Assembly: GCF_900104955.1 (NCBI RefSeq)
Contig: NZ_FNSI01000001.1
Span: forward strand, 2,700,001-2,764,000
Reading direction: 5' to 3'
Source: Beijerinckia sp. 28-YEA-48
Lineage (GTDB): Bacteria; Pseudomonadota; Alphaproteobacteria; Rhizobiales; Beijerinckiaceae
Length of the DNA stretch: 64,000 nucleotides
Position numbers and translations under genes: made by a program. Below are positions 7,411-35,128 of this stretch, piece after piece. Positions within the stretch are counted from its first letter, which is position 1. Each line of letters starts with the position of its first letter. The notes under the pieces were generated by a model. That model made no database searches, was not told the origin of the DNA, and saw only the letters and a list, made by a program, of their open reading frames with translations.

Positions 7411-7430
7411 CGCGGTCTCCCTCTATTGCT

Positions 7431-13510: not shown

Positions 13511-13517
13511 CAAGCCC

Positions 13518-17325: not shown

Positions 17326-17344
17326 ACTTCAATAATTGAAGTAA
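17324..17344. promoter_or_regulatory. ACTTCA..TGAAGT palindromic operator (site 1)
   Basis: A perfect palindrome with 10-base arms TTACTTCAAT and ATTGAAGTAA around one central A, placed over the -10 region of the SDR-livHMGF promoter. The same core recurs at 26543 and 27704 next to two other genes of the island. This suggests a common repressor, most simply one of the two tandem HxlR proteins. Confidence 0.75.
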
Positions 17345-18272: not shown

Positions 18273-18283
18273 GAGAGACGCGG

Positions 18284-19168
18284 ATGGACGCCCAGGTCGT
18301 GCAGATTCTTCAGCTGACCCTCAACGGGATCTCCATCGGCTCGATCTATGCCCTGGTCGCGCTCGGCATCGTGCTGACCTACAAGGCAACCGAGGTGCTG
18401 AACTTCGCCTATGGCGACATTCTGATGATGTCGGCCTTCATCGGCTGGGGCCTGATCGTCGTGGTGGGCATCCCGTTCTGGCCCGCCGCCCTGCTGACCA
18501 TCCTCATCGCCGCCGTGCTCGGCTTTTTCCTCGACCGTTATGTGATGCGCACGATCGTCGGGCAGCCGCAATTTGCTGGCGTCATGCTCACCATCGCACT
18601 GGCCTTCATGCTGCGCGGCCTTGTCAGCATGGGCTTTGGTCCAAGCTCGCGCAGTTACCCGACACCCTGGACCGGCCATATCACCCATATCGGACCGATC
18701 GTGGTGACCGATCTCAACCTCGTCATCCTCGCCGCCGCCTTGATCGTCACGGCGCTGCTGTTCCTGTTCCTGCGCTACACCCAGCTTGGCGTCGCCATTC
18801 AGGCGTCGTCGCAGAACCAACTCGCCGCTTATCTCTGCGGCATCCGCGTGAAGCGACTGAACTCGCTGGTCTGGGGCCTCACCGCCGCCATGGCCGCCGT
18901 CGCCGGCCTGCTGCTGGCCCCCATCGCGCTGGTCGATATCAGCCTCTGGTTCGTCGTCCTCAAGGGCCTCGCGGCGCTGGTGCTCGGCGGCTTTGGCAGC
19001 ATTCCGGGCGCCATCATCGGCGGCCTGCTCATCGGACTGATCGAACAATTCGCCGGGGTCTATCTGCCCGATGGCGCCAAGGAAATGTCGGCGCAGCTGG
19101 TGCTGATCGTCGTCTTGATCTGTTGGCCCCGCGGCCTGTTAGGCGAAGCGCACGGAAGACGAGTTTAA
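18284..19168 (+). CDS. livH: Branched-chain amino acid-type ABC transporter permease (LivH)
   Basis: 294-aa inner-membrane permease with about eight hydrophobic segments and the LivH signature LNGISIGSIYALVALGIVLTYKATEVLNFAYGD. It forms the translocation pore with LivM encoded two bases downstream. Its start lies 11 bases after the SDR stop, so it belongs to the same transcript. The family imports amino acids but in catabolic islands often serves aromatic or aliphatic acids. Confidence 0.9.
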   Translation: MDAQVVQILQLTLNGISIGSIYALVALGIVLTYKATEVLNFAYGDILMMSAFIGWGLIVVVGIPFWPAALLTILIAAVLGFFLDRYVMRTIVGQPQFAGVMLTIALAFMLRGLVSMGFGPSSRSYPTPWTGHITHIGPIVVTDLNLVILAAALIVTALLFLFLRYTQLGVAIQASSQNQLAAYLCGIRVKRLNSLVWGLTAAMAAVAGLLLAPIALVDISLWFVVLKGLAALVLGGFGSIPGAIIGGLLIGLIEQFAGVYLPDGAKEMSAQLVLIVVLICWPRGLLGEAHGRRV

Positions 19169-19169
19169 C

Positions 19170-20246
19170 ATGCGGTTTGCATACGACACCTCCTACAGCG
19201 ATGCGCAACGGCTGCTGCGCTACCGTTCGCAATGGCTCTGCTATGGCGCGCTGGTCATCGCCCTCATCGTCGCGCCCTGGGTCATCCCGGCCTATTACGT
19301 CGGTGAGCTGAGCTATCTCTTCATCATCGCCATCGCCAGCCTGGCGCTGATGGTGCTGACCGGCTTCACCGGCCAGGTCTCGCTCGGCCACGCCGCCTTC
19401 ATGGCCATCGGCGCTTATACCCATGCGCTACTGCTCGACCAGGGCATCGGCTTCATCCCCTCCATCCTGGGGGCTGCGACACTGACGGGCGTGGTTGGTC
19501 TGGCCGTCGGCCTGCCGGCGATCCGCGTTTCGGGGCTTTATCTGGCGATGGTGACGCTCGCCTGCGCCATGCTGACCGAACAGGTCATCGGCCGCTGGAA
19601 GGATTTGACCGGTGGCTTCACCGGCATTCCCGTCTCGCCACCCATCATCTTCGGCTATGACTTCAGCTCGCTGAAGGCCTTCTATTTCCTGTGCCTGGTC
19701 ATCCTGGCCATGGTTCTGCTCGGCCTGATCAATCTGATACGCGGCCGTACCGGACGCGCCTTCATCGGCGTGCGCGATTCAGAAGCCGCCGCCTATACGC
19801 TCGGCATCTGGGTTGGCGGCTATAAAGTGCTGGCCTTCGCGATCTCCGCCTTCGTCACTGGCATCGCCGGCGCGCTGCTGGCCCATCACCTGCAATTCCT
19901 GACACCGGACGGGTTCAGCGTCATGCTGTCGATGGAGCTGGTGCTGATGGTGGTGATCGGCGGGCTCGGCTCGCTGCGTGGTGCCATCTTCGGCGCAGTA
20001 CTGATCGGCATGCTGCCGACGCTGATCTCGAAGATCAAGCCGCTGCTGCCGACCAGCATTTCCTCGCAGTTCGGCCTTGAGACGTTCGTTTTCGGCTTGA
20101 TCCTGGCTCTGTTCGTGATGTTCGAGCCCAATGGGCTCAACGGCCGCTGGCTCAAACTGAAAGTGCTATTCCAGAACTTCCCGCTTTATCGGCGCAACAC
20201 GTTCCGACGCGGCAAGACCTATATGCATTCGGAGCGCTATCGATGA
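19170..20246 (+). CDS. livM: Branched-chain amino acid-type ABC transporter permease (LivM)
   Basis: 358-aa membrane permease of the LivM family, recognised by MVLTGFTGQVSLGHAAFMAIGAY and VIGGLGSLRGAIFGAVLIG. The C-terminal tail after the last membrane segment is long and basic. Its stop overlaps the start of livG (ATGA), which is typical for co-translated transporter subunits. Confidence 0.9.
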   Translation: MRFAYDTSYSDAQRLLRYRSQWLCYGALVIALIVAPWVIPAYYVGELSYLFIIAIASLALMVLTGFTGQVSLGHAAFMAIGAYTHALLLDQGIGFIPSILGAATLTGVVGLAVGLPAIRVSGLYLAMVTLACAMLTEQVIGRWKDLTGGFTGIPVSPPIIFGYDFSSLKAFYFLCLVILAMVLLGLINLIRGRTGRAFIGVRDSEAAAYTLGIWVGGYKVLAFAISAFVTGIAGALLAHHLQFLTPDGFSVMLSMELVLMVVIGGLGSLRGAIFGAVLIGMLPTLISKIKPLLPTSISSQFGLETFVFGLILALFVMFEPNGLNGRWLKLKVLFQNFPLYRRNTFRRGKTYMHSERYR

Positions 20247-21001
20247 GCTATTTCTCCGTCGACAGCGTCTCTCTGTCCTTTGGTGGCGTGCGCGCCATTC
20301 GGGATCTCAGCTTCGATGTGGCGAAGGGCGAGGTCTTCGCCATCATTGGCCCCAATGGCGCCGGCAAGACGTCTGTCTTCAACGTCATCACGCGGGTATT
20401 CACCGCCAGCTCCGGTCGCATCACCTTCGATGGCCAGGATATCACCCATGTTCCGCGCCACAAAGTCGTCGACTATGGCATCGCCCGCACTTTCCAGAAC
20501 ATCGAACTGTTTGAAGGCGCGGCGGTGATCGACAATCTCCTGCTTGGCCGTCATCGCTTCTCCTACGGCAATCTGCTCTCGGAAATCTGCTGGCTGCCGG
20601 GCATTCAGCGGGCGGAAGCGGAATCGCGCGCCCGCGTCGAAGACATTATCGATTTCCTCGAACTCGCCCCCTATCGCAACAGTCTGGTTTCCTCCCTGCC
20701 CTATGGCGTGCGCAAAGTGGTCGAACTGGCGCGCGCCCTCGCCACCCAGCCGAAACTGTTGCTGCTCGACGAGCCCGCCTCCGGCCTCAACCCGGAAGAG
20801 GCGCGTGACCTTGCCTTCTGGATCGACGACATCCGCAGCGATCTTGGCGTCACCGTGGTGATGATCGAGCACGACATGTCGCTCGTCTCCCAAGCCGCAG
20901 ATCGGGTGTTGTGCATGAATGCCGGCCAAGTGCTCGCCATCGGCGCGGTGGACGAGGTGCAAGCCAACCCCACCGTCATCTCCGCTTATCTCGGGACATA
21001 G
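20243..21001 (+). CDS. livG: Branched-chain amino acid-type ABC transporter ATPase (LivG)
   Basis: 252-aa ATPase with Walker A GPNGAGKTS, a degenerate signature LPYGVRKVVELARAL, Walker B LLLLDEPASGLNPEE and the switch His in MIEHDM. The ARTFQNIELF segment is characteristic of LivG. It overlaps livM by four bases and precedes livF by four bases. It energises the importer encoded by 18284-24861. Confidence 0.9.
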   Translation: MSYFSVDSVSLSFGGVRAIRDLSFDVAKGEVFAIIGPNGAGKTSVFNVITRVFTASSGRITFDGQDITHVPRHKVVDYGIARTFQNIELFEGAAVIDNLLLGRHRFSYGNLLSEICWLPGIQRAEAESRARVEDIIDFLELAPYRNSLVSSLPYGVRKVVELARALATQPKLLLLDEPASGLNPEEARDLAFWIDDIRSDLGVTVVMIEHDMSLVSQAADRVLCMNAGQVLAIGAVDEVQANPTVISAYLGT

Positions 21002-21005
21002 CGAC

Positions 21006-21785
21006 ATGAGCGAACCCTTGATGAGCATCCGCAATATCGAGACTTGGTACGGTCCGATCAACGCCATTCGCGGTGTCAGCCTTGATGTGCACGAAGGCCG
21101 CATCGTCGCGGTTCTCGGTGCCAATGGCGCCGGAAAATCGACCCTGCTGCGCACCATCGCCGGCGTGATCGACCCGTTCAAAGGCGCGGTGACATTCGAC
21201 GGCCAGATGATCCACGGGCTCGATCCCGATGAAATTGCCCGTCGAGGCGTCGTTCTGGTGCCGGAGGGACGGCAGGTGTTTCCGTTCCTGAGTGTGCGCG
21301 AAAACCTGATGATGGGCGCCGTGGCGCGGCGCGACAAAGCTGGGCTCGCCGACGATTTGGAACAGATTTTCAACTGGTTCCCGCGTCTGCGCGAACGCAC
21401 CAACCAATATGGCGGCCTGCTCTCGGGTGGCGAACAGCAGATGCTCGCCATCGGCCGGGCGCTGATGTCACGGCCCCGCATGCTCCTGCTCGACGAGCCT
21501 TCCCTTGGTCTCTCGCCCTTGATCACCAAGGACATTTTTTCCATCATCGGGCGCGTCAATGCCGAGACCAAGACGACCATCCTGGTGGTCGAGCAGAATG
21601 CGGCGATCGCGCTGAAGAATGCGCAGGACGCCTACATCATGGAACTGGGGAGGATCGTCGCCGCCGGCTTGAGTGAAGAGCTCATGCAGAAGCAGGACGT
21701 GAAGGAGTTCTACCTCGGCACCGGCGCGACAACAGGAGCGGATGGACGCATGCAACGCTGGAAGAGGCGCAAGACATGGCGGTAG
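21006..21785 (+). CDS. livF: Branched-chain amino acid-type ABC transporter ATPase (LivF), extended C-terminus
   Basis: 259-aa ATPase with Walker A GANGAGKST, signature LSGGEQQMLAIGRAL, Walker B LLLDEPSLGLSP and VVEQNA. LivF proteins are usually about 235-240 aa. This one has a basic C-terminal extension of roughly 20 residues ending RWKRRKTWR, and the extension overlaps the start of the acyl-CoA synthetase at 21776. The overlap suggests coupling between uptake and CoA activation. Confidence 0.88.
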   Translation: MSEPLMSIRNIETWYGPINAIRGVSLDVHEGRIVAVLGANGAGKSTLLRTIAGVIDPFKGAVTFDGQMIHGLDPDEIARRGVVLVPEGRQVFPFLSVRENLMMGAVARRDKAGLADDLEQIFNWFPRLRERTNQYGGLLSGGEQQMLAIGRALMSRPRMLLLDEPSLGLSPLITKDIFSIIGRVNAETKTTILVVEQNAAIALKNAQDAYIMELGRIVAAGLSEELMQKQDVKEFYLGTGATTGADGRMQRWKRRKTWR

Positions 21786-23650
21786 CAGGCATGGCAGCTC
21801 TGCGCATCGACACGGCGCCGCCGCCGTGGAGCCCCATCTCGGTTGCGGGCCAGGACACGCCGACCCGACTGTTTCGGGCGCGCTGCCAGGCGTGGAAAGA
21901 GCGGCCGGCGTTGCGCCAGAAACGCAAAGGCATCTGGCATTCGCACAGCTGGGGCGACTATTATTTCAACGCCCGCGCCATCGGCCTGGCGCTCCTCGAT
22001 GTCGGCTGCAAGCGTGGCGATGTCATTGCCGTTCTGGCCGAGAACCGGCCCGAATGGCTCTTCGCCGATATGGGTGCGCAATGTGTTGGCGTCATCGGCA
22101 CAGGCATTTACCCGACCTCCCCGCCCGAACAGATCGAATATATCCTGATCAATTCAGGCGCCCGCGTCATCTTCGTCGAGAACGACGAGCAACTCGACAA
22201 GACGCTCGAGATCCGCAAGAACTGCCCGGGCCTGACACGCATCGTGGTGATGGACTGGGACGGGTTACGCGATTTCTCCGATCCGCAGGTGGTGCCGTTC
22301 TCCGCCTTCCTGGCACGTGGCCAGGAACAGGCGACGGCGCAGGCGGAGGTTTTCGAACAAGCGATCGATACGACCGATCAGGCCGATACGGCTTTTCTCG
22401 TCTATACATCAGGCACAACCGGCGCGCCGAAAGGCGCGATGATCTCCAATCGCAACGTGATGTTCCAGCTCGAGGCGATTGCCCGGCATCTGCCGGTGGC
22501 CGAGCTCGATCATTCCATCTCCTTCCTGCCGCTCTGTCATATCGCCGAGCGCATGGGCACGGTGTTCAACCAGCTCCGGCTCGGCGTCATCGTGCATTTT
22601 CCTGAAAACGCCGGCACCGTCTTCAATGATATCCGCGAAGTCGCGCCGCATATGCTGTTTGCGCCGCCGCGCTTCTGGGAGAAGATGCATTCCCAGATCG
22701 AATTGTTCCTGCGCGACGCCATGCCGTTGGCGCGCAAGGTCTACGCCAAGGCGGTCGCCGACGGTGCGGCCATTGCGGAGGCGACCATGGCGGGGCGCCA
22801 GGTCTCGGGACTACGGCGCTGGCGCTTCGCGGCGCTGCAGCTCGTCGCGCTGATGAATGTGCGCAAATTCCTCGGCTTGCAGAACATCAAAGTGGCCACC
22901 ACCGGTGCCGCGCCCGTGCCGCCGGATCTGATCAAATGGTACATGGCCATGGGCATCAATCTGCTCGAAGCCTATGGCATGACGGAGACGACCGGCTATG
23001 CCACGGCGATGCCGGCGAACGGCATCCGGGTCGGCACGGCCGGCATCGGCGTCGATAAAACCGAACTCAAGATCGGCGCCGAGGAGGAAATCCTCGTGCG
23101 CGGGCCGCATGTCTTCCAAGGCTATTGGCACATGCCGCAGAAGACCGCTGAGGCGATCGACCACGACGGCTGGCTGCGCACGGGCGATTGTGGCGAGATC
23201 GATGCCGATGGCTATCTGCGGGTCAAGGACCGGTTGAAGGACATCATCATCACCTCCGGCGGCAAGAACATCACCCCGAGCCAGATCGAGAACGATCTCA
23301 AATTCAGCCCCTATATCGTCGATGCGATGCTGGTCGGCGATGGGCGAAAATATCTTACCTGCCTCGTCATGATCGATCAGGACAATGTCGCCAAATTCGC
23401 TCAGGACAAACAGGTTCCCTACACCGATTTCAGGAGCCTGACGCAGACCAGCGAAGTGCAGACCCTGGTGCGCACGGAGATCGAGACCATCAACGGCAAG
23501 CTGGCGCGAGTGGAGCAGATCAAGGATTTCCGCCTCATCGAAGACCTGTTGACGGCCGAGGACGAGGAACTGACGCCGACCATGAAACTCAAGCGGCGTG
23601 CCGTCGCTAAGAAATACGCGGCGCTGATCGAGACCATGTACCAAAACTGA
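21776..23650 (+). CDS. Long-chain-type AMP-forming acyl-CoA synthetase
   Basis: 624-aa ligase of the FAA/long-chain fatty acyl-CoA synthetase type. Motifs seen are the ATP loop FLVYTSGTTGAPKGAMISN, EAYGMTETTG, LRTGDCGEID and KDRLKDIIITSGGKNITPSQIE. It differs from the two shorter synthetases of modules A and B in length and in the linker before the EAYGMTE motif. It sits inside the transporter operon between livF and the binding protein, so the imported ligand is probably a carboxylic acid that is trapped as a CoA ester. The ATG at 21776 follows GAGG; a second ATG lies at 21791. Confidence 0.87.
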   Translation: MAVAGMAALRIDTAPPPWSPISVAGQDTPTRLFRARCQAWKERPALRQKRKGIWHSHSWGDYYFNARAIGLALLDVGCKRGDVIAVLAENRPEWLFADMGAQCVGVIGTGIYPTSPPEQIEYILINSGARVIFVENDEQLDKTLEIRKNCPGLTRIVVMDWDGLRDFSDPQVVPFSAFLARGQEQATAQAEVFEQAIDTTDQADTAFLVYTSGTTGAPKGAMISNRNVMFQLEAIARHLPVAELDHSISFLPLCHIAERMGTVFNQLRLGVIVHFPENAGTVFNDIREVAPHMLFAPPRFWEKMHSQIELFLRDAMPLARKVYAKAVADGAAIAEATMAGRQVSGLRRWRFAALQLVALMNVRKFLGLQNIKVATTGAAPVPPDLIKWYMAMGINLLEAYGMTETTGYATAMPANGIRVGTAGIGVDKTELKIGAEEEILVRGPHVFQGYWHMPQKTAEAIDHDGWLRTGDCGEIDADGYLRVKDRLKDIIITSGGKNITPSQIENDLKFSPYIVDAMLVGDGRKYLTCLVMIDQDNVAKFAQDKQVPYTDFRSLTQTSEVQTLVRTEIETINGKLARVEQIKDFRLIEDLLTAEDEELTPTMKLKRRAVAKKYAALIETMYQN

Positions 23651-23676
23651 GGGTTGAACTCGCAACGGAGGGGATG

Positions 23677-24861
23677 ATGCGTTTAAAGACAGCATTAATG
23701 GCGGGTGCCTTAGCTGGCGCCGTGCTGACCGGACTATCCGGCTTGGCCCGCGCAGCGGGCATTACGGACAGCGAAATCGTTCTGGGCACCCATCTGGACC
23801 TTTCAGGTCCCGTGGCTGCCGCCATGCCGCAATTGCGCAACGGCATGCAGATGCGGTTCGACGAAGCCAATGAAGCGGGCGGCATCAACGGCCGCAAGAT
23901 CCGCCTCATCGTCGAGGATAACGGCAGCCAACCGCAGCTTGCCGTGCGCGCCACCGACAAGCTGATCCGCAGCGACGGTGTCTTCGCCATCGTCAATGCC
24001 TTCGGCTCGGGCACCAATGCCGCCGTGGTCAAGCGCGCCGTCGATGCCGGCGTGATTTACTTCTCGCCCTGGGGCGCGGCAGCCGTGTTGCAAAAGATTT
24101 CCGGCCGCAGCCCGCTGCTGTTCACGACGACCGCCGACTACGACACCACAGCAAATGCCGGTCTTGGCTGGCTGATCGATGAGAACAAGGCCAAGAAAGT
24201 CGGCTTCATCTTCCAGGAAGGTCCGCTCGGCGAATTGACCAAGACTGGCGTTGTCGCAGCCCTTGAATCCCGGGGCATGAAGCTTGCGGCCGAAGCCTCG
24301 TATAAGGTCGGCGACATCGATTTCTCCTCCCAAGTGGCTCGTATGAAGGCCGCTGATGTCGACATTATTTTCGCCGCGACCCTGACGCGCGAGACCGTCG
24401 GCGTCATGTCGGAAGTGAAGAAACTCGGCTGGGACAGCGTCAAGGTGCTGACGACCATTCCGGGGCGGACGATTGTTGTTGCTGAAATCGGCAAGGGCGC
24501 CGTGGAAAGCCTGTCCGGTATTGGCACCTGGTATATCTGGCCTCCGGGCGCAGAGCCGGCTGACGTCAAGGTCTGGCAGGAGAAGTATCGCAAGCTCTTC
24601 AAGATCGAGCCGGACGAAAATGCTTTCCTGGCCTATGCCTATTCCGACTGGTTCGTGAAATACGGCCTGCAAGCGGCCGGGCGCGATATCACCGCCGAAA
24701 AGGTCGTCAAAGGCCTGCAGAGCTCCACCTATACCGACAGCCCGATCTTCTATGGGCCGAAGCGTTTCAAGAACAATCATATCGATCCGGAAACCGTGCA
24801 GATCAGCCAGGTCAAAAAGGGCGTCTGGATGCCGATCAGCGGTATGATCGATCCGAAGTAA
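23677..24861 (+). CDS. Exported ABC transporter substrate-binding protein
   Basis: 394-aa periplasmic binding protein of the Leu/Ile/Val type. It has a Sec signal peptide (RLKTALMAGALAGAVLTG..ARA) and a mature start GITDSEIVLGTHLDLSGPVAAA. The ATG at 23677 has a better spacing from GGAGGGG than the one at 23674. It closes the operon that starts at 17364 and is followed by a strong terminator. The LGTHLDLSGP opening is common in binding proteins associated with aromatic or fatty-acid-like ligands, but the ligand is unproven. Confidence 0.88.
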   Translation: MRLKTALMAGALAGAVLTGLSGLARAAGITDSEIVLGTHLDLSGPVAAAMPQLRNGMQMRFDEANEAGGINGRKIRLIVEDNGSQPQLAVRATDKLIRSDGVFAIVNAFGSGTNAAVVKRAVDAGVIYFSPWGAAAVLQKISGRSPLLFTTTADYDTTANAGLGWLIDENKAKKVGFIFQEGPLGELTKTGVVAALESRGMKLAAEASYKVGDIDFSSQVARMKAADVDIIFAATLTRETVGVMSEVKKLGWDSVKVLTTIPGRTIVVAEIGKGAVESLSGIGTWYIWPPGAEPADVKVWQEKYRKLFKIEPDENAFLAYAYSDWFVKYGLQAAGRDITAEKVVKGLQSSTYTDSPIFYGPKRFKNNHIDPETVQISQVKKGVWMPISGMIDPK

Positions 24862-24874
24862 GGCAGGCCAAACG

Positions 24875-24911
24875 AACGGCGCCGCGTTCGCGCGCGGCGC
24901 CGTTTGCTTTT
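24875..24911 (+). terminator. Rho-independent terminator of the SDR-liv operon
   Basis: A perfect 12-bp stem (AACGGCGCCGCG with CGCGGCGCCGTT) around a TTCGCG loop is followed by TGCTTTT. It lies 13 bases after the stop of the binding-protein gene and only 22 bases before the next start codon. Confidence 0.88.
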
Positions 24912-24933
24912 CAACCGTTGGAGCACTGAAGGC

Positions 24934-25716
24934 ATGAGTGAACAGCCCGCGATCGATTTCTCCCGTCTCGGCCCTGCGGCCGGCGCGCGCATCGCCATCG
25001 TCGGCGGCTGCGGCGGCATGGGGCGCGCGCTCGTGCGCGCCTTGCTGGACACGGGCGTGCAAGTGGCTGTGCTCGATCTGCCGACATCGATCGAACAACA
25101 TAAGCCGCCGGCCGGTGCCATCGCGATTGCGATCGACGGCAGCCAGGAAGAGAGTGTGACTCAGGCTTTCGCTGATCTAAGCCGGCAATGGGATCGTATC
25201 GACGGCTTCGTCAATCTCGCCGGCTTCATGAAGGGGTTTCATCCGATCGCCGAATTGCCGGCGGCGATTTTCGACGAAGTCATGACAGGCAATCTGCGCA
25301 CCCAGTTCCTGTGCGCCCGTGCCGCGCTGCCTTTGCTGCACAAGAGCAGCCAGGCGGCCATGGTCAATGTCACCTCCACTCTCGGCATCGATGTCCACGG
25401 CGGTTACGTCCATTACTCGGCCGCGAAAGCCGGCATTATCGCGCTGACCAAGGGGCTGGCGCGCGAGAATGCGCCGCGCGTGCGCGTCAATGCTCTGGCG
25501 CCTGGCCTGACCAACACCGCTTTCCTCGTCGGTGGCACGGGCCGAGAGAAAGTGTTCGACGATATGGACCCGCAGCTCTATGGCAAACGCGTGCCGCTGA
25601 AGCGGGTCGCCGTCGCCGACGACATGGTCGGCCCGATCCTGTTCATGCTGGGCGCGGCCTCGCGCTATATGACCGGCGAAACCATGATCGTCGACGGCGG
25701 CACCTATGTGCAGTGA
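24934..25716 (+). CDS. Short-chain dehydrogenase/reductase
   Basis: 260-aa SDR with an atypical cofactor loop VGGCGGMGRALV, a catalytic YSAAK and C-terminal MTGETMIVDGGTYV, which is standard for the family. NLAG is present in place of NNAG. The ATG at 24934 was chosen because upstream codons run into the terminator. It could oxidise or reduce a hydroxy or keto intermediate. It lies just beyond the terminator and converges on the hydrolase at 25729. Confidence 0.82.
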   Translation: MSEQPAIDFSRLGPAAGARIAIVGGCGGMGRALVRALLDTGVQVAVLDLPTSIEQHKPPAGAIAIAIDGSQEESVTQAFADLSRQWDRIDGFVNLAGFMKGFHPIAELPAAIFDEVMTGNLRTQFLCARAALPLLHKSSQAAMVNVTSTLGIDVHGGYVHYSAAKAGIIALTKGLARENAPRVRVNALAPGLTNTAFLVGGTGREKVFDDMDPQLYGKRVPLKRVAVADDMVGPILFMLGAASRYMTGETMIVDGGTYVQ

Positions 25717-25728
25717 TCAGAGGCGCAA

Positions 25729-26511
25729 TCACAATTTCCTGTGCAGGAAATCGAGGACAATGCGGTTGAATGCGTCGGGCTGTTCAGCCCAGCCGAAGTG
25801 ACCGACACTTGGCATGCAAACGAATTCGGCCCCAGCAATTTTCGTCGCCATTTTCTCCATGACGGCGACGGGCGCCGTGCGATCGCCTTCGCCAGCGATG
25901 CACAGGGTCGGCACATTGATCTTCGGCAGCACGTCGCGGCCATCGTAATGCACGATGGCGCTGATGGCGGCGCGGAAAGTTTCCTCGCGCATGGTGCCGA
26001 CGGTGCCGATCACCAGATCAACCGCAGGACCATTGGCGCCCGACACCATCATCTGGCGCAGCATGCCCGGCGTATATTGCGCAATGCTCTGCCCGGCATC
26101 GAGCGGCGCGACGCGATCACGCACGAATTGCTGCTGCCATTCGCCATCGGGCTTGCCGAAGGCAGCGCTTGTCGCCGACAGGATGAGACCGGCAACCTTG
26201 TCGGGGAACAGGCCGAACGCCCGCTGCGCGATCATGCCGCCCATCGAATGACCGACCAGCACATTGCGCGCGCCGCCGGCAACATCAAGAAGTCGCCCAA
26301 GCGCTTCCGCCGCGACCTCGACCGAGAAGGGCTGCGGCAACGGGCTCAGGCCATAACCTGGCGCATCCCAGGCCAGCACCCGATAGCCAGCCGCAACCAG
26401 GGCTGCGATCTGCGCCCGCCAATAGTCCTTGGCGCCAAAAGCGCCGTGCAGCAGCACGATGGTGACATCGCCTGCACCCGTGACGCTGTAGTCGGGAATT
26501 CGCTTGGTCAT
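25729..26511 (-). CDS. Alpha/beta hydrolase
   Basis: 260-aa hydrolase with LLHGAFGAKDYW (oxyanion region), the nucleophile motif GHSMGG, an Asp in GEGDRTAP and a His in SVGHFGWAEQP. This is a complete cytoplasmic catalytic set resembling esterases and C-C hydrolases of aromatic catabolism. I start it at the ATG at 26511 because GGAGAG lies just upstream. The ATG at 26523 is directly preceded by 12 cytosines and has no ribosome site. Its promoter carries the ACTTCA operator and is almost identical to that of module B. Confidence 0.82.
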   Translation of the reverse strand: MTKRIPDYSVTGAGDVTIVLLHGAFGAKDYWRAQIAALVAAGYRVLAWDAPGYGLSPLPQPFSVEVAAEALGRLLDVAGGARNVLVGHSMGGMIAQRAFGLFPDKVAGLILSATSAAFGKPDGEWQQQFVRDRVAPLDAGQSIAQYTPGMLRQMMVSGANGPAVDLVIGTVGTMREETFRAAISAIVHYDGRDVLPKINVPTLCIAGEGDRTAPVAVMEKMATKIAGAEFVCMPSVGHFGWAEQPDAFNRIVLDFLHRKL

Positions 26512-26523: not shown

Positions 26524-26535
26524 GGGGGGGGGGGG
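26524..26535. repeat. 12-base G/C homopolymer in the hydrolase leader
   Basis: Twelve consecutive G on the plus strand (C on the coding strand of the hydrolase) lie between the -10 hexamer and the ribosome site. The expected transcription start falls inside the tract. Such tracts change length by slippage, so expression could vary; a sequencing artefact is also possible. Confidence 0.8.
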
Positions 26536-26536
26536 C

Positions 26537-26559
26537 ACTATAACTTCATTTAATGAAGT
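26537..26559 (-). promoter_or_regulatory. Hydrolase promoter with ACTTCA..TGAAGT operator (site 2)
   Basis: On the minus strand the palindrome ACTTCATTAAATGAAGT (26543-26559) is followed directly by TATAGT (26537-26542), a good -10 hexamer. The stretch from one base before the palindrome through TATAGT matches the module B promoter in 23 of 24 bases. No clear -35 hexamer is visible. The site lies between the hydrolase and the divergent tandem-HxlR regulator and could control both. Confidence 0.75.
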
Positions 26560-26690
26560 ATTATTTGCAAGTCCTTTGCGTAGAAAGGGAGGAGCAGAAT
26601 GACTGACAATGCCTGGAAGCTCCCAATTGTGAGCAAAAACCAACGACTTCTATCCCCGGCGGGACTCAGCTAAGAGCTAGGATCAAGGTT

Positions 26691-27656
26691 TTGGATCCCA
26701 TCGTGGTCAGCAAGGACAAGCCCGAACAGCTGATGACCCCGGCGCGCCTCGCCCAGGCGGTCACCGGCGACGCGTGGACATTGCACATCCTGCGGCACGC
26801 CTTCCGCGGGACACGGCGTTATAGCCAGTGGCGCGAGCTTTTCGCTGGCGAGGGCATGCCCATCCCCGAACCTGTGTTGAGTGATCGCCTAGGACGGCTG
26901 GTGTCTTATCAAGTCCTCGAGCGACAGCCCACCACGCCGCAGGGCGCGCATCTTGAATACCGGTTGACCGATCGCGGCCTTGAACTGTGGACGCTGTTGA
27001 TCTCGATCCGGGATTGGGAAGAGCGTTATGCTGGCGGGCGACGCGGCAAAAATACGGCGATGATCGTGCATACGAGTTGTGGCCACCCGACGCATCCGAC
27101 CCTGATCTGCTCCCATTGCAGCAAAACCGTCACGGCGCGCGACACCAGGCTCGACATGATCGTCGCCAAGTCCGGCACGTCCGCTGCAAAATTATTGAAA
27201 GTGCCCAATACACGCCGCTCGAACGCCGCCGAGCGTGGTGCGCGCGGCAAATTCCTGCGCACTCAGACCTTGCAGATCATCGGCGACCGTTGGAGCAATA
27301 TGCTGCTAGGCGCCCTCTTCCTCGGCAAGCACGGCTTCGACGAATTGCGAGGCTTCCTGGCGATTCCACCGGCCGTTCTTTCCAATCGCCTGGCGAAATT
27401 CGTGTCGCTGGGCGTGTTGCAGAAAGAGAACCACGCCGAAACCCCACGCCGCAAATTCTACCGGCTGACCGACAAAGGCCTGGCGCTGTTTCCGCTCGTC
27501 ATTTTCACGGTCGACTGGGGCAATCGCTGGCTGACCGCTCATCCGGAACATTTCCGCATCGTCCACACCACGTGCGGCGCCACGCTGCGCCCGACGCTGG
27601 CCTGCAGCCATTGCCACGAGCATCTGCAACGCCAGACGGTGCAACTGGTCCCCTGA
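26691..27656 (+). CDS. Tandem HxlR-type regulator with two cysteine-containing modules (2)
   Basis: 321-aa regulator with two HxlR winged-helix units. The first contains AVTGDAWTLHILRHAFRGTRRYSQW, the second IIGDRWSNMLLGALFLGKHGFDEL. Each unit is followed by a Cys-rich segment, IVHTSCGHPTHPTLICSHC and IVHTTCGATLRPTLACSHC, a C-x10-C-x2-C pattern that could bind zinc or sense redox or electrophiles. The regulator at 16166 has the same layout but no such cysteines. The start is uncertain: TTG at 26691 follows AAGG, with GTG at 26703 or ATG at 26733 possible. It is flanked by two ACTTCA operators. Confidence 0.83.
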   Translation: MDPIVVSKDKPEQLMTPARLAQAVTGDAWTLHILRHAFRGTRRYSQWRELFAGEGMPIPEPVLSDRLGRLVSYQVLERQPTTPQGAHLEYRLTDRGLELWTLLISIRDWEERYAGGRRGKNTAMIVHTSCGHPTHPTLICSHCSKTVTARDTRLDMIVAKSGTSAAKLLKVPNTRRSNAAERGARGKFLRTQTLQIIGDRWSNMLLGALFLGKHGFDELRGFLAIPPAVLSNRLAKFVSLGVLQKENHAETPRRKFYRLTDKGLALFPLVIFTVDWGNRWLTAHPEHFRIVHTTCGATLRPTLACSHCHEHLQRQTVQLVP

Positions 27657-27697
27657 CATGAGCGCAAGGCCCGTTTTCAACGACGTTACCGCCTGAC

Positions 27698-27726
27698 TTG
27701 TTTACTTCAATAAATGAAGTTATAGT
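27698..27726 (+). promoter_or_regulatory. Module B promoter with ACTTCA..TGAAGT operator (site 3)
   Basis: TTGTTT (27698-27703) and TATAGT (27721-27726) are separated by 17 bases, and those 17 bases are exactly the imperfect palindrome ACTTCAATAAATGAAGT. A protein bound there would occupy the spacer, as in repressors of the TetR/MerR-type promoters. GGGAGG and the thiolase ATG follow downstream. Confidence 0.75.
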
Positions 27727-27745: not shown

Positions 27746-28945
27746 ATGGATGCCTATATCGTCGATGCGGTTCGCAGCCCTCGCGGCGTCGCCAAACCCA
27801 CCGGAGCCCTGGCCAGCGTAAAACCCGTTCACCTCTTGGCGCAGATGCTCACCGCCGTACAGGACCGGGCTGGCTTCGATCCCGAACAGATTGACGATCT
27901 CATTGTCGGCTGCGTCACCCAGAGCGGCGACCAGGGCGCCAATATCGGCAAGACAGCGGCGCTCTATGCGGGCTGGAGCCCCAATGTCTCGGGCATGACC
28001 CTCAATCGCTTCTGTGCTTCGGGCCTTACAGCGGTGAACCTTGCTGCCGCGCAGGCCGCCGCCAATGAAGGGGCCGTGGTGGCCGGCGGCGTCGAAATGA
28101 TGTCGCGCGTGCCGATGTTCGGCGACAATGGCGCTTTGTTCACCGACAAGGAAGTCGCCAAGCGCACCAATTTCGTTCACATCGGCCTCAGCGCCGATCT
28201 CGTCGCCACCCAGCATGGTTTCAGCCGCGCGCAATGCGACGACTATGCCTTTCTCTCCCATAGCCGCGCCGCCGCCGCCAAAGCCGAGGGCCGGTTCAGC
28301 CGCTCGCTGGCGCCGGTGAAATCCGCCGAAGGCGCTATCGTGTTGGAAGCCGACGAGACAGTGCGCGCCGATGTGACGCGCGAGAAACTAGCGGCGCGAG
28401 ACGCGGCCTTCCTGGAGGCCGGCGCCAAGGGCGGCGATGATCGTCTGCGCGCCCTGTTTCCCGATCTCAGCGAAATCCGTCACGTCCATCACGTCGGCAA
28501 TTCGCCGCAGATGGCCGATGGCGCGGCCGCCGTTCTGGTCGCGTCAGAGAAGGCGCTGAAAGATCTCGGCCTCAAACCACGCGCCCGCATTCTTGGCTGG
28601 AGCGAAGCCTGCACCGCCATCACCCAGACGGGCGCGGTGGAGGCGACACGCAAATGCCTCGCTCGCACCGGTATGAAGATCGAGGATATCGATCTGTTCG
28701 AGGTGCGTGATTCCTTCGCCGCTGTGACCCTGCATTACATTCATGCGCTCGGCATTCCGTTGGAGCGCTTCAACGTCAACGGCTCGTCCATCGCGCTCGG
28801 CCATCCCATGGGCGCCACCGGCGCGATGTTGGTCAGCACCTTGCTCGACGAACTCGAGCGCCGCAACGCGCGCTACGGCCTCATCGGCATCGCTGGCGCC
28901 GCCGGCGTCGCCACCGTTACGCTCGTCGAAAATCTCGCCGCCTGA
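27746..28945 (+). CDS. Thiolase-family protein with altered active site (module B)
   Basis: 399-aa thiolase-like protein, first gene of module B, with the ATG at 27746 after GGGAGGACAAGCC. The nucleophile Cys90 (NRFCASG) and the His of LGHPMGATG are intact. The NEAF motif reads VRDSFA, and the C-terminal CxGGG Cys is missing (IAGAAGVAT). The module A enzyme lost the same two positions, so the change is probably functional rather than decay. A role in acyl-CoA chain shortening is assumed from context. Confidence 0.82.
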
Positions 28946-28968
28946 CGGTTGGCGCCAGGAGCATCGTC

Positions 28969-30441
28969 ATGAAAACCTCGCACACGATCCCCAGCACCAT
29001 CGTTTTCCCCAACGAAAATCCCTATCTCAACGAAGCCTGGAAGCCCTGCGACACCGAATGGACGGTGACGGCGCCGGATCTCGAAGTCATCGGCGAGATT
29101 CCACGCGATCTGAACGGCGTCTATCTGCGCAACGGCCACAACCAGGTGCATGAACCGATCGGCCGGTTTCATCCTTTCGATGGCGACAGCATGGTGCACG
29201 CCGTCCATCTGGAAAATGGCAAGGCGGCCTATCGCAATCGCTATACTCGCACCATCGGCTTTCTCGCCGAACAGGCGGCGGGCAAATCGCTCTGGCCCGG
29301 CATTATCGAGCCGCGCAAAGGCTCACGCCGGGGCTGGGGCAGCATCGGCAAGATGAAGGACAATGCCGGCACCGACATTCTCGTCCATGGCGGCAAGGTC
29401 ATCGTCGCCATGTCCCAGTGCAGCGAACCCTATCGGCTTGACCCGATCACCTTGGAGACCTTCGGCCCCGACGAGAATTGGGCTCTGGACGTGCAGCCCC
29501 ATGGCATCTGCTCGCATTTCAAACATGACCTGGCGTCCGGCCATATGATGTTCTTCAACTATGGCGAACGCCATCCCTATATGAATTACGGGGTCGTCGA
29601 CCGTCACAACAAACTCGTCCACTACGTGCCGATCGAACTGCCCGGCCCGCGCTGGCCGCATGATCTCGGCTTCACCAGCAACTATTCGATCTTGCACGAT
29701 CTGCCGATGTTCTTCGACCAGGCGCTTTTGGCCAAGGGCGCGCATCGCCTCGCTTTCCATCGCGATGTGCCGGCGCGTTTCGGCATCATTCCGCGTTTCG
29801 GCGCCAACAGCGACGTCAAATGGTTCGAGGCCAAGCCCTGCTACATCCTGCATCTGGCCAATTGTTATGAAGACGGCGACGACGTGGTCATGGAAGGCTG
29901 CATCCAGACCAACCCACTGCCCGACCTCTCGCAATTCCCGAAAGAGGGCTATGCCCGCATGATGGCCATGCTCGACATGCATCTGCAGGAAACCCACATG
30001 CATCGCTGGCGCTTCAACATGAAGACCGGCCAGACGAAGGAAGAATATCTCGACGATCAGGTCACCGAATTTCCGATGACCAATGCGGATCTTGGCGGAC
30101 GGCCCTATCGCTACAGCTACAATGCGCTGCCAGCCAAAGGCTTCTGGCTCCTCGAAGGCCTGAAGAAATACGATTTCCAAACCGGCCAGACGCAAACCTA
30201 TATGATGCCGAAGGGTTGCTATATCAGCGAAGCCCCTTTCGCGCCGCGCCCGCACGGCCAGGGTGAGGACGATGGCTATCTCCTCACCTTCGTCACCAAT
30301 CTCAACAGCGGCCGCGGCGAATGCGCCATCTTCGACGCGCAGGACATCACCAAAGGACCGATCGCGCGCATTCTCCTACCGCATCAGGTGCCAAGCGGCG
30401 CGCACGCCTTCTGGGCGCCGTCCGATCTCCTCGTCGCATAA
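28969..30441 (+). CDS. Carotenoid oxygenase family dioxygenase (module B)
   Basis: 490-aa relative of the module A dioxygenase, predicted to cleave a C=C bond with O2 at a four-His iron centre. The ligands are at about residues 183 (ICSHFK), 231 (WPHDLGFTSNY), 295 (ILHLANCYEDG) and 479 (SGAHAFWA). The N-terminal EVIGEIPRDLNGVYLRNGHN matches the KVIGEIPRDLHGAYVRNGPN segment of module A. AGGAG lies before the ATG. It sits between thiolase and the nitronate monooxygenase-like gene, an order that differs from module A. Confidence 0.88.
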   Translation: MKTSHTIPSTIVFPNENPYLNEAWKPCDTEWTVTAPDLEVIGEIPRDLNGVYLRNGHNQVHEPIGRFHPFDGDSMVHAVHLENGKAAYRNRYTRTIGFLAEQAAGKSLWPGIIEPRKGSRRGWGSIGKMKDNAGTDILVHGGKVIVAMSQCSEPYRLDPITLETFGPDENWALDVQPHGICSHFKHDLASGHMMFFNYGERHPYMNYGVVDRHNKLVHYVPIELPGPRWPHDLGFTSNYSILHDLPMFFDQALLAKGAHRLAFHRDVPARFGIIPRFGANSDVKWFEAKPCYILHLANCYEDGDDVVMEGCIQTNPLPDLSQFPKEGYARMMAMLDMHLQETHMHRWRFNMKTGQTKEEYLDDQVTEFPMTNADLGGRPYRYSYNALPAKGFWLLEGLKKYDFQTGQTQTYMMPKGCYISEAPFAPRPHGQGEDDGYLLTFVTNLNSGRGECAIFDAQDITKGPIARILLPHQVPSGAHAFWAPSDLLVA

Positions 30442-30461
30442 CCGATATCGCGAGAAGCCCC

Positions 30462-31475
30462 ATGACGAACCGGCAACTCCCCGCCTCCCTGACCGATGGA
30501 CTGGAACTGCCACTGATCGTGGCGCCGATGTTCCTGGTCTCCGGCGTCGATCTTGTCGCCGCCGCTTGCCGCAACGGTACGATCGGCGCATTGCCGTCGC
30601 TCAATGCGCGCTCACCAGAGATTCTGGACGCCTGGCTGAAGGATCTGACGACACGCCTTGAGGATGATCGCCAGTCCGGCAATGCGCCAGCGCCCTGGGC
30701 GGTCAATCTCGTCGTCCACTCCACCAACAAACGATTGGCGCCAGACCTCCATCTTTGCGTCAAATATCGCGCGCCGCTGATCATCACCGCGCTCGGTGGC
30801 CCAAGGGCGGTGGTCGATACGGTGCATAGTTATGGCGGCCTGGTCTTCGCCGACGTCAACACGCCGGCCTATGCACGCAAGGCGGCCGACACCGGCGTCG
30901 ATGGGCTGGTGCTTGTCTGTTCGGGTGCCGGTGGCCACACCGGGCCGATGACGGCGCCGGCCTTCGTCGCCAGCGTGCGCTCCTTCTTCGATGGCATCAT
31001 CGTCGTCGCCGGCGGCCTGACCTCCGGGCAGCATCTGCGCGCCGTCCAGGCGATGGGGGCTGATCTCGGCTATATGGGCACCAATTTCATCGCCACCGAA
31101 GAGAGCCTGGCACAACCGGGCTACAAACAGATGGTGGTCGACAGCCAGTTCTCCGACATTATCTGCACCAATGCGATCACCGGCGCCTATGCCAACAAGC
31201 TGCGGCCGAGCCTGGTCGCCGCCGGCCTCGACCCCGACAATCTCAAGCCACGCGGCAAATTCGAAATGGCGAGCGCGGGAGAGGACCAGAAAGCCTGGCG
31301 CGATCTGTGGTCCGCCGGCCATAGCGTCGAGCAGGTGAAAGCGATCCGTACCACCGCGGAGGCCATCACCGAGATCGGGCGCGGTTATGATGAAGCCCTG
31401 GCCGCCGAGCTGAACGATCCCTGGCGGCGGATGCGGCAGACCACCATGCAAGCGACGAAGAAAGTCACGGCATGA
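30462..31475 (+). CDS. Nitronate monooxygenase/2-nitropropane dioxygenase-like flavoprotein (module B)
   Basis: 337-aa FMN TIM-barrel protein, paralogue of the module A protein at 7910. Both share APMFLVSGVDLV near the N-terminus and AGGHTG with the predicted catalytic His. The ATG at 30462 was chosen because it matches the N-terminus of the paralogue. Its stop overlaps the start of the acyl-CoA synthetase (ATGA), the same gene adjacency as in module A. Whether it acts on nitronates or on an acyl intermediate is unknown. Confidence 0.8.
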   Translation: MTNRQLPASLTDGLELPLIVAPMFLVSGVDLVAAACRNGTIGALPSLNARSPEILDAWLKDLTTRLEDDRQSGNAPAPWAVNLVVHSTNKRLAPDLHLCVKYRAPLIITALGGPRAVVDTVHSYGGLVFADVNTPAYARKAADTGVDGLVLVCSGAGGHTGPMTAPAFVASVRSFFDGIIVVAGGLTSGQHLRAVQAMGADLGYMGTNFIATEESLAQPGYKQMVVDSQFSDIICTNAITGAYANKLRPSLVAAGLDPDNLKPRGKFEMASAGEDQKAWRDLWSAGHSVEQVKAIRTTAEAITEIGRGYDEALAAELNDPWRRMRQTTMQATKKVTA

Positions 31476-33172
31476 GGATTTGCGATGCCGTGACCGCTCA
31501 GCGCTTCCGCGAGGCTGGATGGTGGCCGGACACGACTCTCGACGATCAGCTTTTCCGCCATATGCGCGAACGGCCGCAACAGGAAGCCATTGTCGACCCG
31601 CCTAATCGCGCCGAGATCGACGGGCAACCGCCAGCGCGGCTGACCTGGGCTGATTTCGGCGACGCCGTCTCCCGCCTTACCGCTGCCTTGGCGCGCAACG
31701 GCATCGGCGCCGACGATGTTCTGGTGGCCCAGATGGCCAATACCTGGGAGATCATCGCGCTTTATTTCGCGGCGGCGCGGCTCGGCGCCATCGTCTCGCC
31801 AGTGCCGACGCAATATCGCGAGCGCGATGTCGGCTATGTGGTCGAGCACGTGCGGGCCCGGGCATTGATCGTCACGCCGCGCATCGGCCGACACGATTTC
31901 ACCGCGATGGCGTCTGCCATCGCCAAGGCTGCATCGATTAGGCTTTTTACGATCGGCGACAGCAGCGAATCTGGCATCGATCTCACAGCGGAGATGGAGA
32001 AAGACGTAGGAGAGTATACCGCAGTATCGCCGGCCCATGCCGACGATATCGTCTGCCTGTGCTGGACCTCGGGCAGCGAGGGCCGACCGAAGGGCGTGGC
32101 GCGCAGTCATTCGCAATGGCTCGCCATCGCGCCGATGATCGTGGAATCGGCCAATCTTCAGCCCGGCTGTCGCATTCTCAATGGACGACCGGTCGTTACC
32201 ATTGGCGCGATGACGGCAACTTTGTCGCCCTGGCTGCAGCTCGGCGGCACGCTGGTCAATCATCATCCGTTTTCGCTGGATGTCTTCATCGACCAGATTT
32301 TCAACGAAGCCATCGACTTCACCGGCTGCGCGCCGGCCATGCTGGTCAAAATGGCGGAACATCCTGCGATGCAGAGCCGACGCGATCTCGGCCGACTGCG
32401 CACCATCAGCTCGGGCTCGGCACAATTGCCGGCGCATCTGATCCGGCTCTATCGCGATCGCTTCGGTGTCGATCTCCTCAATGTTTTCGGTTCGACCGAA
32501 GGGACGATGCTGGCCAGTACGCCCCAAGACATGCCCAACCCCGAGGATCGTGCCGCCTATTTCCCGCGCTATGGCGCGGATCGCTGCTGGCAGCTGTCTC
32601 TGGCGCAGGGGATTGAGAGTCTGCTGAAAGATCCAGAGACGGGGAAGCTGATCGAGGTGCCGGGGAAACCCGGCGAATTGCACCACCGTGGCCCTTTCAC
32701 CTTCTTGGGCTATTTCAACGCCCCGGAACTCTCCGAAGCGGCCTTTGACACGGAAGGTTTTGCCCGCACGGGCGATCTGTTCGAGATCGCTGGCGATCGG
32801 CAGCAATATTACCGTTTCGTCGGCCGCCTGAAGGATATCATCGTGCGCGGCGGCATGAACATTTCCACGGCGGAGGTGGAGGCGCTGGTGGTATCGCATC
32901 CGGCAGTTCTGGAAGTGGCCGCGGTCGGCGTGCCCGATGCGGCGTTGGGCGAAAAGGTCGCGATCGCCGTGGTCTTCCGCGACGGCGCCACCGCCTCGCT
33001 GGCGGAGATCAACACGTTTCTGCGCGAAGCCTGCGGCATTGCCCTCTTTAAACAGCCCGAGCATCTGATCGGCCTTGAGGCGCTGCCGCGCACGGCCGTC
33101 GGTAAAGTGGACAAGATCGCGTTGCGCAAAATGGTCGCTGACGGAGTTTACGCCACAGGACCACGGGCATGA
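31472..33172 (+). CDS. AMP-forming acyl-CoA synthetase (module B)
   Basis: 566-aa carboxylate-CoA ligase with the ATP loop IVCLCWTSGSEGRPKGVARSH, NVFGSTEG, FARTGDLFEIAGDRQQYYRFVGRLKDIIVRGGMNIS, and a C-terminal TAVGKVDK Lys. It is colinear with the module A synthetase at 8863, and both have the GWW...RP....DPPN N-terminus. It overlaps both neighbours by four bases. It should activate the acid derived from dioxygenase cleavage or imported from outside. Confidence 0.86.
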   Translation: MRICDAVTAQRFREAGWWPDTTLDDQLFRHMRERPQQEAIVDPPNRAEIDGQPPARLTWADFGDAVSRLTAALARNGIGADDVLVAQMANTWEIIALYFAAARLGAIVSPVPTQYRERDVGYVVEHVRARALIVTPRIGRHDFTAMASAIAKAASIRLFTIGDSSESGIDLTAEMEKDVGEYTAVSPAHADDIVCLCWTSGSEGRPKGVARSHSQWLAIAPMIVESANLQPGCRILNGRPVVTIGAMTATLSPWLQLGGTLVNHHPFSLDVFIDQIFNEAIDFTGCAPAMLVKMAEHPAMQSRRDLGRLRTISSGSAQLPAHLIRLYRDRFGVDLLNVFGSTEGTMLASTPQDMPNPEDRAAYFPRYGADRCWQLSLAQGIESLLKDPETGKLIEVPGKPGELHHRGPFTFLGYFNAPELSEAAFDTEGFARTGDLFEIAGDRQQYYRFVGRLKDIIVRGGMNISTAEVEALVVSHPAVLEVAAVGVPDAALGEKVAIAVVFRDGATASLAEINTFLREACGIALFKQPEHLIGLEALPRTAVGKVDKIALRKMVADGVYATGPRA

Positions 33173-33900
33173 GCCGACAGACCCTCGTTCTCATCCCTGG
33201 CATGCTCAACAATGCGACGGTGTGGAGCGAGGTCGCGCCCGCCCTCACCGACGTGGCGGATGTACATATCCCGATATTCAGCGATGAAAACACAATCGAA
33301 GCCATGGCCGAGACAGTGCTGGCCTCAGCCCCGCCAGGGCCGCTAGCCATCGCCGGCTTTTCCATGGGCGGTTGGGTGGCGCAGGCGGTATTTCGCCAGG
33401 CGAAAGATCGCACCACGCGCCTCGCCTTCATCAGTTCAGGCGCAAGCCCGGCTGATCAGAAAGAACTGGACACGTTCACGCGCACCGGCAACAGCGTGCC
33501 GAGTAATTTCGAAGCCCTGCTGGCGCGCATGTTCCCGGCAACAGTCCATCCCTCGCGGCTTGAGGACACGGCGCTTGCCGCGACAGCCATTCAGATGTGG
33601 CGCGAGGTCGGCCCGATCACTTTCGTGCAGCAGCGCCAGGCTGTCGTCGACCGGCCGGATCTGCGCCCGCATCTGCGCGCTCTCGACATTCCCGTGCTCA
33701 TCGCCTGCGGGCGTGAGGATCCGGTGTGTCCACCGGCTTTTTCGCAGGAACTCGGCGCTTTGATGCCGTCAGCGCATATTGTCTTCGTCGAGCAATGCGG
33801 GCATCTTTTGCCCTTCGAACGTCCAGACGAACTTGCCGGCCTCATGCGGCAGTGGCTCGCGGCCAAGCAAGGTATCACGCAGGGAGAGAGACATGGCTGA
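33169..33900 (+). CDS. Alpha/beta hydrolase (module B)
   Basis: 243-aa small alpha/beta hydrolase with LIPGMLNNATVW, the nucleophile motif GFSMGG, an Asp in CGREDPVCPP and a His in QCGHLLPFERP. It resembles esterases and enol-lactone or C-C hydrolases (MhpC/PcaD-like fold) found in catabolic operons. Start and stop both overlap neighbouring genes, so it is firmly part of module B. The specific reaction cannot be assigned. Confidence 0.82.
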   Translation: MSRQTLVLIPGMLNNATVWSEVAPALTDVADVHIPIFSDENTIEAMAETVLASAPPGPLAIAGFSMGGWVAQAVFRQAKDRTTRLAFISSGASPADQKELDTFTRTGNSVPSNFEALLARMFPATVHPSRLEDTALAATAIQMWREVGPITFVQQRQAVVDRPDLRPHLRALDIPVLIACGREDPVCPPAFSQELGALMPSAHIVFVEQCGHLLPFERPDELAGLMRQWLAAKQGITQGERHG

Positions 33901-35128
33901 GCCGATCTATATCCTCGGCGGACATCAGACCGATTTCGCCAAGGCATGGTCGCGCGAAGGCCAGGACATTGCCGACATGGTGCGCGTGGCGACCGAGAGC
34001 GCGCTCGCTGACGCCGCGCTTGACGCATCCGCCATCGAGACCATCCATGTCGGCAATGCATTTGGCGAAGCGCAGCGGCGGCAAGGGCATCTGGGCGCCA
34101 TGGTGGCGCAGGTCGTTCCTGAATTATGGGGCGTGCCGGCCATGCGCCATGAGGGCGCTTGCGCGTCCAGCTCGCTCGCCACGCTCGCCGCCATGGCGGA
34201 GATCGAGGCTGGGCGCTACGGCTGCGCGCTGGTGCTCGGCGTCGAGGAATTGAAGAACCTGCCCGGCGATGTCTCGTCGCAGAACCAAAACGCCGCCGCC
34301 TGGCAGGGACACGAGGGCATCGACTGCCGCTTCATGTGGCCTGCCGTCTTCGGCCGCCTGGCTGGCGAGTATGACCGGCGCTACGGGCTCGACCGGCGCC
34401 ATCTCAACCGGATCGCCGAACTCAATTATGGCAATGCCAAGCGCAATCCAAATGCACAGACGCGCACGTGGCAGTTCAACGAACTGAGTTTCACCGATGA
34501 CGACAATGCCAATCCGATGATCGAGCCCGGCACCCGGCGGCAGGATTGCGGCCAGATCACCGATGGCGCCACGGCGGTGATCCTGGCCTCCGAGCGCGTT
34601 GCGAAGGACTATGCGGATCGGCGTGGCATCCGGCTCGAAAGCCTACCGCGCATTCTCGGCTGGGGCCATCGCAATGCCGGCTTGAAATTTCTCGACAAGA
34701 TCGAACGCAGCCGCGACAGCGAATATATCTTCCCTCATGTGCGCCAGACGATCACCGACGCCTGGCAGCGCGCCGGCATCACCGGCGTCGACGATCTCGA
34801 TGGCATCGAAACCCATGATTGCTTCACCACGACGGAATATATGGCGATCGACCATTTCGGCATTACGCCGCCCGGCCAAAGCTGGCGCGCGGTGGAGAAT
34901 GGCGACATCGACATGGGCGGTCGCATTCCGATCAATGCGTCGGGCGGTTTGATCGGCGGCGGCCATCCGGTCGGCGCGACAGGCGCACGCATGCTTCTCG
35001 ACACGGCGCGGCAAGTGACCGGCAAAGCCGGCGACACCCAGATCGACAATGCCAAGACACTCGCCACGTTGAACATCGGCGGCTCCTGCGCGACGGTGGT
35101 GAGCTTCGTGGTCGGCGTCCGCGACTGA
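33893..35128 (+). CDS. SCP2-type thiolase/acetyl-CoA acetyltransferase-like protein
   Basis: 411-aa thiolase-superfamily protein of the SCP2-thiolase (lipid-transfer) branch. It has the nucleophile Cys in EGACASSS, the HDCF motif (ETHDCFTTTEY) that replaces NEAF in this branch, and GGGHPVGATG. SCP2 thiolases act on branched or steroid-like 3-ketoacyl-CoAs, which fits a terpenoid- or apocarotenoid-like substrate; the fit is inferred. It is the last gene of module B, and its start overlaps the hydrolase stop. No clear terminator follows before 35266. Confidence 0.83.
   Translation: MAEPIYILGGHQTDFAKAWSREGQDIADMVRVATESALADAALDASAIETIHVGNAFGEAQRRQGHLGAMVAQVVPELWGVPAMRHEGACASSSLATLAAMAEIEAGRYGCALVLGVEELKNLPGDVSSQNQNAAAWQGHEGIDCRFMWPAVFGRLAGEYDRRYGLDRRHLNRIAELNYGNAKRNPNAQTRTWQFNELSFTDDDNANPMIEPGTRRQDCGQITDGATAVILASERVAKDYADRRGIRLESLPRILGWGHRNAGLKFLDKIERSRDSEYIFPHVRQTITDAWQRAGITGVDDLDGIETHDCFTTTEYMAIDHFGITPPGQSWRAVENGDIDMGGRIPINASGGLIGGGHPVGATGARMLLDTARQVTGKAGDTQIDNAKTLATLNIGGSCATVVSFVVGVRD

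Follow-up and report, generated by a model that had tools for sequence, protein, structure and literature searches.

CouR of Rhodococcus jostii RHA1, a MarR-family regulator of p-hydroxycinnamate catabolism with a CoA-thioester ligand (PMC4737184), is by analogy the nearest working parallel to the regulon described here. Its operators, cATTGA-N5-TCAATg, have the same 6-bp arms and 5-bp centre and occur at four promoters within a single catabolic regulon (PMC4737184). CoA-thioester chemistry is a further likeness, as is one CouR operator that serves a divergent pair (PMC4737184). On the other hand, CouR forms a homodimer from single-domain MarR subunits, its operator has another sequence and lies over the -35, and its ligand is known (PMC4737184).

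The second comparison is with the HxlR/DUF24 family (HxlR, YodB, HypR, QsrR; PF01638), which is matched by both halves of the two regulators of our locus, RegB and RegA. MarR/DUF24 proteins are described as dimeric DNA binders whose monomers have one domain each (PMC7835342). By contrast, a single chain of RegA or RegB carries two domains, and HxlR activates, whereas we infer repression here. An engineered parallel is the single-chain HxlR-cpYFP-HxlR sensor (PMC7835342). In the literature searched for tandem or fused HxlR proteins, we found no described case.

Finally, the MarR-family protein EstR of Agrobacterium tumefaciens adjoins an esterase gene and represses by steric block, as we propose here, with palindromes that cover one promoter at its -10 and a second at its -35 (PMC5201249). 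It differs in being a redox-sensing protein with the operator GTTATCGCGATAAC (PMC5201249).

The window, that is, the whole stretch of 64,000 nucleotides analysed here, contains a catabolic cluster with three copies of a palindrome and two regulator genes (Table 1). The transporter, ligase and binding-protein roles in module A were read from translations. Two further gene sets were observed. At 6364-14945 (-) there is a second pathway gene set without an operator copy, with identities to module B of 47% (flavoprotein), 42% (CoA ligase), 37% (thiolase) and 43% (carotenoid oxygenase). Directly downstream of module B, at 35266-40585 (+), lies an RND efflux system with two HlyD-type adaptors and an AcrB-type pump.

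Table 1. Coordinates of the cluster features within the window.
Feature	Position	Strand	Remarks
RegA, second tandem HxlR regulator	16169-17113	-	divergent from module A; without Cys motifs
Module A promoter, TTGACA-17 nt-TACATT	17297-17325	+	directly upstream of operator A
Operator A, ACTTCAATAATTGAAGT	17326-17342	none	exact third copy; heads transport/SDR module
Module A	17364-25716	+	SDR, branched-chain-type ABC transporter, acyl-CoA ligase, substrate-binding protein, SDR
Alpha/beta hydrolase	25729-26511	-	ATG at 26511 after GGAG, both kept in G023
TATAGT, proposed hydrolase -10	26537-26542	-	TTTAGG in G023; no -35 at 16-18 nt
Operator H, ACTTCATTTAATGAAGT	26543-26559	none	17-bp palindrome, sole imperfection the centre base; between hydrolase (-) and RegB (+)
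AATAAT, alternative -10-like hexamer	26560-26565	-	directly upstream of operator H; without a good -35
TTGCAA	26565-26570	-	kept in G023; nearest TTG hexamer to hydrolase TATAGT
RegB, tandem HxlR regulator	26703-27656	+	two HxlR winged-helix domains; likely GTG start 26703, kept in G023
TTGTTT, proposed module B -35	27698-27703	+	kept in G023
Operator B, ACTTCAATAAATGAAGT	27704-27720	none	module B promoter
TATAGT, proposed module B -10	27721-27726	+	TACATT in G023, A2 and T6 retained
Module B	27746-35128	+	thiolase, carotenoid oxygenase (RPE65 family), nitronate-monooxygenase-like flavoprotein, CoA ligase, alpha/beta hydrolase, SCP2-type thiolase

In our reading, ACTTCA-N5-TGAAGT is quite likely the common operator of a local catabolic regulon, bound by one or more tandem HxlR repressors, RegB being the best candidate, and released by a pathway metabolite.

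Read directly from the sequence, 26560-26537 (-) is T ACTTCATTAAATGAAGT TATAGT and 27703-27726 (+) is T ACTTCAATAAATGAAGT TATAGT. This agrees with the original prediction that the two stretches match in 23 of 24 bases and that, in module B, the 17-bp palindrome exactly occupies the spacer between TTGTTT and TATAGT. These two cassettes are two of the three operator copies. The remaining one, operator A, is placed between the RegA gene and the SDR gene leading module A, and forms the core of a 23-bp palindrome, ATTACTTCAATAATTGAAGTAAT.

With up to three mismatches allowed, the pattern ACTTCAWTAAATGAAGTTATAGT occurs twice in the window and in none of 100 dinucleotide shuffles (window expectation 0.0 by shuffling). 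A pattern search for ACTTCAN5TGAAGT in the 6.43-Mb genome returned three exact copies, all (3/3) within one 10.4-kb stretch of the catabolic cluster. The same palindrome is thus present at several transcription units and rare elsewhere. Two sites with one mismatch were found in the rest of the genome, C1:411788 within a 241-aa reading frame and C2:372653 either immediately 5' of a 242-aa frame or at its start. A wider genomic regulon was rejected after a look at these two sites.

In the number of domains, both regulators depart from the usual HxlR architecture of one domain per chain acting as a homodimer. The PF01638 profile scores 105.7 bits for RegB and 108.5 bits for RegA (cut-off 20.8), with two stretches in each, and from these matches we regard them as proteins with HxlR domains in tandem and do not class them with the typical single-domain members. 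Their identity to each other is approximately 30-34%. In RegB, each domain is followed by a Cys-rich motif (SCGH...CSHC and TCGA...CSHC). Two winged-helix units are seen in the predicted structure of RegB, which is of moderate quality (pTM 0.60, pLDDT 66, three sequences) and too weak to fix the relative placement of the two domains. It matches PA1607 (2f2e, Z 13.1, 112 residues), HypR 4a5n, QsrR 4hqe and other HxlR/MarR chains, so that solved HxlR-family chains are among its structural matches.

The same-genus relative Rhizobiales bacterium 62-17 (MKVW01000001.1, here G023) has the whole arrangement. All three operators are syntenic there, two of them exact and one, operator A, with one mismatch. 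Operator H reads ACTTCATTTATTGAAGT, while operator B is identical and sits within an unchanged 33-bp block, CGCCTGACTTGTTTACTTCAATAAATGAAGTTA. The flanks of the operators have changed, while the operators keep their places. Among 51 genus genomes, the W-centred 17-mer is present only in the window's genome and in G023. Upstream of RegB, a block at 26655-26676 (around CCCCGGCGGGACTCAG) is also kept in G023.

More distant evidence comes from the Cupriavidus plasmids pENH92 and pRK1-2, where a tandem HxlR gene adjoins genes of the same pathway. Identity to the window's enzymes is 73% for the carotenoid oxygenase, 69% for the hydrolase, 69% for the flavoprotein and 64% for the thiolase, values by which we take the enzymes to be orthologous. 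At the starts of transcription units, each Cupriavidus cluster carries four sites that read RGTTCR-N5-TGAAGT or come near it. In the complete 427-kb plasmid, all exact RGTTCRN5TGAAGT sites (4/4) fall in the pathway cluster. The sites are related to the window's operators and also 17 bp long, but all eight are asymmetric and keep one orientation relative to the downstream gene, whereas the window's sites are symmetric. Further differences are the transport genes and the number of regulators, with a single tandem HxlR gene in the cluster stretch read, directly upstream of the thiolase. We found no description of this pENH92/pRK1-2 cluster in the literature searched.

The flavoprotein operon of Cupriavidus has two sites about 104-116 bp apart (5716-5732 and 5820-5836 in locus L054; 5775-5791 and 5891-5907 in locus L055), a distance at which binding might be cooperative or involve a loop.

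The hydrolase gene is divergent in the window and lies inside the flavoprotein operon in Cupriavidus, under an operator-type site in both orders. The original prediction had called the hydrolase and module B unrelated. This holds in the sense that the genes are non-homologous, but the Cupriavidus operon places them in one pathway.

The common 24 bases might also be a recent copy of a segment, made by duplication or gene conversion, without any shared regulation. The window match does run 7 bases past the palindrome. However, it ends abruptly at both sides, and what G023 keeps is the operator part alone, which is also the part found again at module A and in Cupriavidus. This origin is very improbable.

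The prediction that a common operator lies at the core promoter and that two of the sites flank a regulator gene is strengthened by the operator's uniqueness in the genome, its conservation in G023 and the related Cupriavidus sites. The prediction's assumption of a single regulator has to be given up, there being two paralogues. Close homologues of RegB among 200 relatives, and of RegA among 397 family genomes, were found only in the window's genome and in G023. RegA and RegB therefore always co-occur in these sets, and the binder is not separable by co-occurrence in the genus.

RegA might be the protein that binds the three operators, with RegB controlling something else. It adjoins operator A, and between the window's genome and G023 it has changed less than RegB has (93-94% identity, against 83-84%). 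We nevertheless think this unlikely, since the one tandem HxlR gene of the Cupriavidus cluster, where the sites are present, sits like RegB before the thiolase gene, and its product has 34% identity to RegB and slightly less, 31%, to RegA. On these grounds of position and identity, RegB appears the likelier binder. A point against this preferred model is that RegB and the Cupriavidus regulator are only 34% identical, against 64-73% for most enzymes of the two clusters.

As for the promoters, the original prediction considered those of the hydrolase and module B near-identical, with TATAGT as the -10 of both genes, the placement in the spacer as the mechanism (occlusion or distortion) and an equal response. 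The 23/24 identity and the exact fit of the palindrome in module B speak for this, together with the TTGTTT kept in G023 and the A2 and T6 retained in the G023 hexamer TACATT. The likeness of the two promoters breaks down at the hydrolase, where no correctly spaced -35 is present and the G023 hexamer, TTTAGG, has lost the key A2 and T6 with the operator intact. Changed in G023 at both genes, and without a -35 at one of them, TATAGT was rejected as a common -10. Module B itself has hexamers that score 8/12, and a promoter scan with a cut-off finds no promoter there. Taken as a whole, this reading is unlikely, all the more as the position in the spacer is not a shared design and the operator elsewhere lies downstream of the -10 or over it.

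The hydrolase position equivalent to the module B TTGTTT reads AATAAT, which means that the -35 half is missing there. No sigma-70-type hexamer pair was found upstream of the hydrolase. TTGCAA was rejected as the -35 of the hydrolase TATAGT, the two being 22 nt apart and not 17 nt. AATAAT is an equal candidate for the -10, and would give the same layout as at module A. Between TATAGT and the start codon of the hydrolase there is a run of 12 C (26524-26535; 12 G on the plus strand), one of three G/C runs of at least 10 in the genome, which is absent in G023. This run could vary in length by slippage, could cause stuttering initiation if the start site is inside it, or could be a sequencing artefact.

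In module B, the TATAGT reading would give a start near 27733, bordering on the ribosome-binding site, with a leader of about 13 nt, and this also counts against our preferred model. Such a leader is possible by analogy with the estR-estC pair of Agrobacterium, where a transcript starts 14 nt before the ATG and so has a similarly short leader (PMC5201249).

Stronger promoters are seen elsewhere in the regulon. The module A promoter corresponds to TTGACA-17-TACCCT in G023. The Cupriavidus flavoprotein operon has TTGACC-18-TATATT with the operator immediately after, and the Cupriavidus thiolase has TTTACA-17/18-TATATT with the -10 inside the operator. The hexamers are near consensus, with 10/12 matches, at module A and at two kinds of Cupriavidus promoter. 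An operator over the core promoter or start site is clear for module A, the Cupriavidus thiolase and the Cupriavidus flavoprotein, and plausible for module B, all with predicted starts.

Relative to the -10, the operator lies downstream, over or upstream depending on the promoter, so a specialised distortion of the 17-bp spacer need not be invoked. The geometry favours simple occlusion, and the exact fit in the 17-bp spacer appears to be one case among several, not the sign of a special mechanism. MerR-type regulators have a MerR-type domain and an operator in a lengthened spacer of 19-20 bp. A MerR-like distortion was rejected here, the module B spacer having the normal length of 17 bp and the regulator an HxlR domain.

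The tandem HxlR protein could instead activate these promoters, like B. subtilis HxlR on hxlAB, the sites being activator sites. Weak or missing -35 elements are often seen in activator-dependent promoters, and module B and the hydrolase have a weak -35 or none. Furthermore, B. subtilis HxlR answers formaldehyde with enhanced transcription (PMC7835342), and that HxlR itself is an activator is a point against our model. However, the predicted layouts have the operators over the start site, over the -10 or within the spacer, which is the geometry of a repressor, and at the 10/12 promoters the operator follows or overlaps the hexamers. Activation is in our view quite unlikely. Repression is the reading we prefer, the strong -35/-10 pairs having the operator just downstream of the -10 or over it, as a repressor would.

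We propose that the operator marks the promoters of module A (uptake and activation), of the divergent hydrolase and of module B (cleavage of the carotenoid-oxygenase type, CoA ligation and thiolysis). The palindrome would be bound by a tandem HxlR regulator, RegB being the most likely and RegA a possible one, and the two winged-helix domains of the chain would serve as a built-in pseudo-dimer. Once bound, the regulator would mask the -10 or the start site and block RNA polymerase. The pathway substrate or a CoA-thioester intermediate may then free the regulator from the operator and turn the pathway on.

Other tandem-HxlR loci were compared. No operator with up to two mismatches was found in four such loci of other pathways (Sinorhizobium, Agrobacterium, Bradyrhizobium), and no common palindrome was seen in approximately 14 further loci. 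Polaromonas and Sphingopyxis loci and a second C. necator plasmid, all with a related oxygenase, had no convincing site.

Tandem HxlR proteins may be natural single-chain pseudo-dimers whose domains are free to diverge from each other and to recognise half-sites that differ. The Cupriavidus sites being asymmetric and in the same orientation, their regulator would bind in a fixed direction. In the recognition-helix regions, assigned by alignment, the two RegB domains are alike (PVLSDRL and AVLSNRL), whereas those of the Cupriavidus regulator are unlike (AVLTKRL and YILGQRL). Coming from two related plasmids and from helices placed by alignment alone, these observations make such a reading by unlike domains a tentative and somewhat doubtful idea.

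The kind of control system described here is ordinary, while the two-in-one regulator is unusual. For this soil bacterium, the analysis defines a compact regulon of three operators and two candidate regulators, serving a pathway centred on an enzyme of the carotenoid-oxygenase type. For the tandem-HxlR regulators, it supplies a candidate operator sequence, and the asymmetric, directional Cupriavidus sites may offer a route to how a single-chain two-domain regulator reads DNA.
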